Positions 43,565 to 44,662 of a stretch of DNA of 64,000 bases are shown piece by piece (position 1 is the first letter of the stretch; each line of letters opens with the position of its first letter). The position numbers were made by a program, and so were the translations under genes. Under the pieces are notes generated by a model, which did not search any database, had not been told where the DNA came from, and saw nothing but the letters and a program-made list of their open reading frames with translations. This DNA comes from Curtobacterium sp. MCSS17_007 (lineage in GTDB: Bacteria; Actinomycetota; Actinomycetes; Actinomycetales; Microbacteriaceae): assembly GCF_003234175.2 (NCBI RefSeq), contig NZ_CP126257.1, positions 2,790,001 to 2,854,000 of the forward strand, read 5' to 3'.

Positions 43565-44662
43565 TCAGTTCGCCCGGTCTCGGCGCGCGGCCGTGCGCCC
43601 GGGGCGGGCCCAGGCGGTGGCGAGCGCGACCGGCGCGTCCGTCACGGCCGCGGCGAGCTCGAAGTCGTAGAGGCTCTGCCCCGACCGCCGTCCGGTCACG
43701 GTCGCGGCGCCCCCGTGGAGCAGGAGTCGGACGTCACCGGAGACGTGCCGCTGCGTCTCCTCGACGAAGGCGTCGACTGCCCGGCGGAGGCCACTCGCCC
43801 ACCGCCCGCCGTCGACGAGGTCGGCCCACTCGCGGTCCACACCCTGCTTCACGCGCAGGACGTCCCGCTCGAGGGTCAGGCGTTCGAGGTCCTCGTGCGC
43901 GGCGACGAGCACGGTCGCGCCGGGGGTCTCGACGACCCGGCGGACCTTGCGACCGTCGAGCAGGTCCTCGACGAGGTCGTGCCGACCGATGCCGTGCCGG
44001 CCGGCGAGGGCGTCGATCTCCTGGAGCAGGCGGAGCACCGTGAAGCGCTGGCCGTCCAGGGCGACCGGGACGCCGTGCTCGAACGTGACGGTGACCTCGT
44101 CCGCAGCAGGAGCGTCGCCCGGGTCCTGGGTCCGGGCCCAGTCCGCCGGGTCCGCCGCCGTCCAGGGGTCGTCGAGGTCCGGTTCGGTGACGAGCCGCCC
44201 CCACAGGTCGTGCTCCGTCCCCGTGCCGGGCACCACGGCGGCCGGCACCGCGAGGACCGGCAGGTCGGGGTCGGCCCCGGCCACCGCCGCCGCGAGCGCG
44301 ACGTCGTCCGGTGCGAGGGTCAGGTGTGCGACCGCCACGGCGCCGAGCTGCCGCGCGGTCCGGACGAGGTGGTCGGCCACGAGCGGCCGTCGGAGCGCCG
44401 GGACGAGGGGACGACCGGGGCCGCCGGCGTTCGCGCGGACGGCCGCGACGACGAACTGCTCGGCGTACTCGGTCCGGGCGTCCACCACGATCGCGTCGAC
44501 CGCTCCTGCCGCCCGCGCACGGTCACGGACGGCGTCGACCTCGCGCGATCGGCCGCCGACGTCGACGACGAGCACCAGGACCTCGTGGTCGACCCCGAAC
44601 TGCTCGACCGCCGCCGCCGGGTCGACCCCGGCGGAGCAGGCCACGACGATGCGGTCGGTCAC
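43565..44662 (-). CDS. Degenerate argininosuccinate synthase-like protein
   Basis: A 365-residue relative of ArgG, 30-40 residues shorter than usual. The C-terminal half is clear: [39 protein letters not shown] and [15 protein letters not shown] [21 protein letters not shown]. The active site is not: the ATP loop SGGLDTS reads SAGVDPA (10-16), DVGQ reads DVGG, and the aspartate- and citrulline-binding GCTGKGNDQ is replaced by LTLAPDDVA (about 114-122). It is therefore probably not a working synthase, unless it uses other residues. It lies 17 bases after argF with GGGAG before its GTG, in the place argG holds in other actinobacteria. A true argG would have to lie elsewhere in the genome. Confidence 0.8.

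Follow-up and report, generated by a model that had tools for sequence, protein, structure and literature searches.

The arginine biosynthesis cluster of Curtobacterium sp. MCSS17_007 lies in the stretch of DNA analysed here, a window of 64,000 nucleotides (contig NZ_CP126257.1, positions 2,790,001 to 2,854,000) from a 3.31 Mb genome assembled as one contig. Its genes run on the minus strand in the order argC-argJ-argB-argD-argF-pseudo-ArgG gene-argH, of which argF and argH were identified by Pfam and argC, argJ, argB and argD were assigned by eye. The gene between argF and argH is an altered type I argG, the gene for argininosuccinate synthase, and we call its product pseudo-ArgG. Its reading frame starts with GTG at 44662, the stop codon ends at 43565, and the protein has 365 amino acids. 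As judged from sequence, pseudo-ArgG has very probably ceased to be an argininosuccinate synthase and been retained for a different role. The features are, in window coordinates:

43565..44662, minus strand: pseudo-ArgG gene (altered type I argG), 365 codons plus stop, product under both ArgG equivalog cut-offs
44249..44653, minus strand: N-terminal HUP/PP-loop domain PF00764, residues 4-138 (Pfam E-value 2.4e-21)
44615..44635, minus strand: SAGVDPA replacing SGGLDTS, residues 10-16, with Ser, second Gly and Asp retained
44552..44563, minus strand: DVGG replacing DVGQ, residues 34-37
44297..44323, minus strand: LTLAPDDVA replacing the GCTGKGNDQVR segment, residues 114-122
43646..44212, minus strand: C-terminal synthase domain PF20979, residues 151-339 (E-value 2.6e-57), citrulline contacts altered, fold predicted to be retained
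44669..44673, minus strand: GGGAG, Shine-Dalgarno-like, 6 bases upstream of the GTG start
44680..45642, minus strand: argF (ornithine carbamoyltransferase), 17 nucleotides upstream of the pseudo-ArgG gene, Pfam-checked
41971..43419, minus strand: argH (argininosuccinate lyase), 145 nucleotides downstream of the pseudo-ArgG gene, Pfam-checked

Family membership and the second argG of the genome

Pseudo-ArgG contains both ArgG Pfam domains, PF00764 and PF20979, and is thus homologous to the synthase over its full length and not only over the C-terminal two thirds, as the first-pass annotation had stated. That annotation was right in placing the gene at the argG position, with correct coordinates, strand and neighbours, and the three replaced motifs were all found as it quoted them. 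With 258 bits against NF001770 (cut-off 334) and 222 bits against TIGR00032 (cut-off 268.2), the protein stays below both ArgG equivalog thresholds, as do all four altered proteins tested; the canonical type I gene of a sister species reaches 575.5 and 490.3 bits. The cut-off of 425 for the NCBIfam family argG_rel (NF038212) is not reached either (146.6 bits), and the nearest named relatives are from Curtobacterium. An AlphaFold model predicts an intact ArgG fold. Poor model confidence at the C-terminal tail was not used as an argument, the canonical tail being equally poor and its alignment nearly the same.

A PF00764 search of the source genome gave two matches, pseudo-ArgG and an E. coli-type (type II) ArgG encoded elsewhere, which has the motifs SGGLDTS, DIGQ and GSTYKGNDIER and passes its cut-off (839.5 bits, cut-off 657). 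The second, canonical argG considered in the first-pass annotation therefore exists, and the situation in which pseudo-ArgG would be the only ArgG of the genome does not occur. Judged by sequence, argininosuccinate synthesis in the source genome does not depend on pseudo-ArgG. The type II protein (NF003779) belongs to the same fold family and presumably has the function that pseudo-ArgG lost, but it differs in its canonical motifs, its locus and its sequence (∼31% identity over 139 C-domain residues). Pseudo-ArgG is closer to the actinobacterial type I synthase (NF001770, TIGR00032; structure 4xfj), with which it shares both domains, the fold and the genomic position. About half of its residues are identical to those of the canonical type I gene of a sister species; unlike the latter, it has lost its citrulline site and its interdomain linker, retains little of the aspartate site, and falls below the equivalog cut-offs.

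The space between the pseudo-ArgG gene and argH (43436-43566) contains short tandem arrays, GGTGCT-type at 43443-43524 and GTCCG-type at 43539-43566, the latter abutting the pseudo-ArgG stop codon. A full rRNA operon (16S, 23S, 5S; 34023-39350, minus strand) follows ∼2.6 kb past argH, and many Curtobacterium draft contigs start ∼4 kb from the pseudo-ArgG gene on this side.

Active-site residues and forms of the gene across Curtobacterium

In all 66 Curtobacterium genomes studied, the argF/argH site carries a type I gene with an open frame of 362-400 codons (the contig of G032 stops before argH). Type II argG is also present in 39 of them, as a piece at a contig end in G009 and split into three pieces in the poorly assembled G026. 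We scored 26 positions, placed by motif, which are substrate contacts or highly sensitive sites of human ASS1 according to the residue lists of a study of that enzyme (PMC13289927). In the 27 genomes without type II, every type I gene is unchanged at all 26 positions. Where type II is present, 24/39 genomes have at least one changed position: 13 show one to nine changes and 11, including the source genome, eighteen to twenty, while 15 show none. No p-value is given for this association because related genomes are not independent.

Partly altered loops were found, for example SGDLGTS (G074, G075), SGSLGTA (G018), SGGRVTS (G065) and SGGLETS (G008, G021). The SAG[VI]DP form occurs in 14 other database protein clusters, some of them from the same genomes, and two of these (P0003, P0016) are publicly named plain argininosuccinate synthase; other changes of the GKGNDQVR segment were seen in clusters P0034 and P0036. 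Start signals and codon adaptation are weaker where type II is present. The type I gene starts with ATG in 27/27 genomes without type II vs 7/39 with it, and its codon adaptation is 0.816 without type II, 0.746 in near-canonical, 0.738 in partly changed and 0.698 in altered genes, while that of argF and argH is level or rising across the same groups.

Pseudo-ArgG has neither the full set of citrulline and aspartate contacts of the synthase (positions by motif) nor the PP-loop SGGxDTS with the adenine contact Gln40, carrying SAGVDPA and Gly instead. In all 11 altered proteins (human numbering), Tyr87, Thr119, Asn123, Arg127, Glu191 and Tyr282 are changed (Thr119 to Ser in five), Thr17 is changed to Pro, Gln40 to Gly and Lys121 to Pro, Gly117 is changed, Gly122 and Asn123 are gapped, and Asp182 is Glu; Glu270 is retained in only two. 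At least 22 inter-domain residues, human Arg157 among them, are absent. Ala10, Ser12, Gly14, Asp16, residue 36 and Asp124 are retained in 11/11, although the match of Asp124 within LTLAPDDVA hinges on the placement of a two-residue gap. The first-pass annotation, which had the ATP- and aspartate-binding residues gone, thus holds for most of the aspartate residues, to which the citrulline residues can be added, but not for Ser, Gly and Asp of the ATP loop. A further 55 positions are invariant across the altered group yet different from the canonical form. Positions kept in all 11 proteins number 6/23 in the active site vs 112/322 elsewhere (p = 0.50); preferential loss of active-site residues was hence not significant in the altered group, and the claim is limited to a loss of their special protection.

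Selection, phylogeny and the wider family

A branch-class codon model was fitted to 35 of the 66 genomes (8/27 without type II, 10/22 near-canonical with type II, 6/6 partly changed, 11/11 altered). The ratio of nonsynonymous to synonymous substitution rates (dN/dS) was 0.015 on tips without type II, 0.028 on near-canonical tips with type II, 0.078 for partly changed genes, 0.47 on the stem that leads to the altered clade and 0.069 inside this clade. Fixing the within-clade ratio at 1 costs 1508 in twice the log-likelihood difference (2ΔlnL), and equating stem and clade costs 25.8; the stem itself is indistinguishable from 1 (2ΔlnL 3.8). Inside the clade the N- and C-domains are alike (0.071 and 0.065), with 1 rejected in both. 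The altered protein changed fast and then became conserved.

Pairwise codon maximum likelihood (ML) gave 0.056-0.089 for five altered pairs with dS <1, for which argF, argH and type II argG yielded 0.013-0.051, 0.001-0.026 and 0.011-0.049, respectively, and 0.014-0.077 for four more saturated altered pairs. NG86 counting on six altered pairs gave 0.16-0.24 (argF 0.05-0.25, argH 0-0.10, type II argG 0.03-0.17). Since NG86 and codon ML ratios differ, the dN/dS value is method-dependent. G000 and G027 differ 21, 17 and 95 times at codon positions 1, 2 and 3, respectively, and neutral simulations matched at position 3 produced at least 93 position-2 differences in 600/600 runs. In the same kind of simulation 53% or 4% of paths gained no stop, depending on base composition. 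In DNA this rich in GC, the intact frame is therefore weak evidence; absence of stops was dropped as proof of function, and it is the codon pattern that speaks against decay. With the frame open in 66/66 genomes and a ratio of 0.069, the gene does not look like a decaying pseudogene. The first-pass annotation had concluded as much from the intact frame, the spacing and a ribosome-binding site; GGGAG and the 17 nucleotides to argF were confirmed and the gene is not dying, but the frame carries little of that argument. The purifying selection on the altered form that it had considered was found in one clade, and the frameshifts and high dN/dS in relatives that would speak for a dying gene were not.

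On a gyrB tree of 64/66 genomes (G009 and G026 were excluded for broken gyrB) the distribution of type II requires 5 gains or losses, and on an argF+argH tree 4; the type II gene tree covers 37/39 genes. The type I gene tree unites the altered group in a single clade (support 100), and the argF+argH tree places the whole group to one side of a support-75 branch. In the gyrB tree it falls into two pieces, with a single clade not rejected (p-AU 0.357). The type I gene tree also has a branch with all 27 genes from genomes without type II on the same side. Set against the 5 changes on the gyrB tree, this makes recombination of argG between lineages possible.

The family survey comprised 299 genomes, 292 of them outside Curtobacterium, with up to six candidates scored per genome and the results tallied by hand. 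Among the 292, 10 had no match, 115 had a type I match above 300 bits, and 167 had only a weaker match of type II-like strength, classed by score (the one in G372 could be a fragment of type I). Both types occur in 2/292 (G127, G202), and the loop and GKGNDQVR are retained in the type I proteins of both genomes. Besides type II, G202 carries at L239:2640-5251 a divergent argG, which is 50% identical to canonical type I and retains the motifs, next to a divergent argH (43% to the argH of the window). No argF match lies nearby, and the pair may be an argGH module of its own.

In a sample of 15 type II-only genomes from 15 genera, argF and argH were found in all and a type I gene between them in none. 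The two genes lie within ∼220 nucleotides of each other in 11/15; in the other four, 1.1-2 kb separate them and hold a gene that by eye encodes a membrane protein. At the argG place of L250, L254, L258 and L247 this putative membrane protein begins GVDLARGLAVLGM or similar. In G147, one of the 11 genomes with the short spacing, 37 codons of a type I argG, including the start, remain between argF and argH (L255:1636-1746); this remnant bears witness to what usually becomes of the displaced gene. As the old gene is missing from all 15 type II-only genera sampled, it is normally lost after displacement, and Curtobacterium with both types (39/66) is exceptional.

ArgR (PF01316) was found in none of the 66 Curtobacterium genomes and none of 120 family genomes, Curtobacterium included. 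The argument that pseudo-ArgG substitutes for the arginine repressor was dropped, ArgR being likewise missing in 120/120 family genomes. Arginine control in the family must therefore be of another kind.

Possible roles of the altered protein

Pseudo-ArgG resembles a pseudoenzyme in that catalytic residues are lost while the fold is predicted to be kept, and in being maintained by selection. Such conservation of a fold without catalytic residues is shared by pseudoenzymes in general, e.g. bacterial pseudokinases; unlike in these, the loss in pseudo-ArgG accompanies a second type of the same enzyme, and partly changed forms exist within the genus. A search of open-licence papers found nothing on the pseudo-ArgG gene.

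The lineage had the usual actinobacterial type I argG between argF and argH together with an E. coli-like type II argG, and we propose that type II took over argininosuccinate synthesis. In one lineage the old protein passed through a burst of amino-acid changes in which the citrulline site, the interdomain linker and much the greater part of the aspartate site disappeared, before purifying selection returned over its whole length, as the codon models show. The protein has stayed in the arg cluster and is predicted to retain the ArgG fold. It may now serve the arginine pathway without catalysis, either as an oligomer or as a nucleotide- or phosphate-binding subunit that would contact or regulate the enzymes encoded alongside. 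To this reading, a pseudoenzyme born by displacement, we assign a probability of roughly 60%. That the kept role is one of partner or regulator inside the pathway is a tentative suggestion.

Several observations weigh against the proposal. Active-site positions were not lost significantly more than others (p = 0.50), and the retained loop Ser, Gly and Asp fit a leftover catalytic or ligand role. The NG86 ratios (0.16-0.24) are higher than those from codon ML and overlap single argF (to 0.25) and type II (to 0.17) values. The altered dN/dS is ∼2.5x that of near-canonical copies, as relaxed constraint would also give, and relaxed constraint would likewise produce the weaker start codons and lower codon adaptation of the type I gene where type II is present. 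No partner of pseudo-ArgG was identified.

The main rival is an enzyme with a changed PP-loop reaction, in which the kept Ser, Gly and Asp, Asp124 and the Glu at position 182 would still bind a phosphorylated ligand, ATP or a different one, while a remodelled pocket would accept new substrates in place of citrulline and aspartate. The retention of these residues in 11/11 proteins, the 55 group-invariant positions unlike the canonical form and the equal constraint on the N- and C-domains are all consistent with it. The ArgG-fold nitrile synthetase ArtA (9leh, 9lei) is a solved precedent for another reaction, but with ∼67 bits it is further in sequence from pseudo-ArgG than ArgG is, and its peptide-modifying context is not seen around the pseudo-ArgG gene. 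Changes at Thr17, Gln40, Gly117 and Lys121 and the gap at Gly122/Asn123, again in 11/11, speak against such an enzyme, the gene remains in the arg cluster, and no gene for a new substrate was identified. We regard such an enzyme as unlikely, though a serious contender.

The two remaining rivals, decay under polarity and a surviving ArgG activity, agree poorly with the data. Slow decay, with the frame open only since stops or frameshifts would be polar on the downstream argH, would agree with partly changed forms in several type II lineages, weaker start signals and codon adaptation, a stem ratio not different from 1, and the small weight of missing stops; yet polarity cannot protect amino acids, and the low ratio in the altered clade, with 1 rejected in both domains, and the strong conservation of codon position 2 already contradict this improbable account. 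Least credible is an isozyme that still makes argininosuccinate with unusual residues. It would explain the argF/argH position, the predicted fold and the partly kept loop, but not the changes at Tyr87, Thr119, Asn123, Arg127, Glu191 and Tyr282 in all 11 proteins and at Glu270 in nine, several of them at residues reported to be highly sensitive in human ASS1 (PMC13289927), or scores below both equivalog cut-offs in 4/4 proteins tested.

For the genus, a pseudoenzyme born by displacement would probably mean a stepwise birth: after takeover by the other type, active-site residues would have been lost in several lineages, and one of them would have gained from it a new protein of the arg cluster that selection maintains, be it a regulator, a scaffold or a protein with a new PP-loop activity. 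The ancestral form and the partly and fully changed ones would still live side by side in sister species. Pseudoenzymes are usually seen after the fact, while Curtobacterium holds canonical, partly changed and fully changed forms together. Because these three forms, and the presence or absence of the replacing enzyme, are found in one genus, the order of events and the onset of a new function are testable in close strains.
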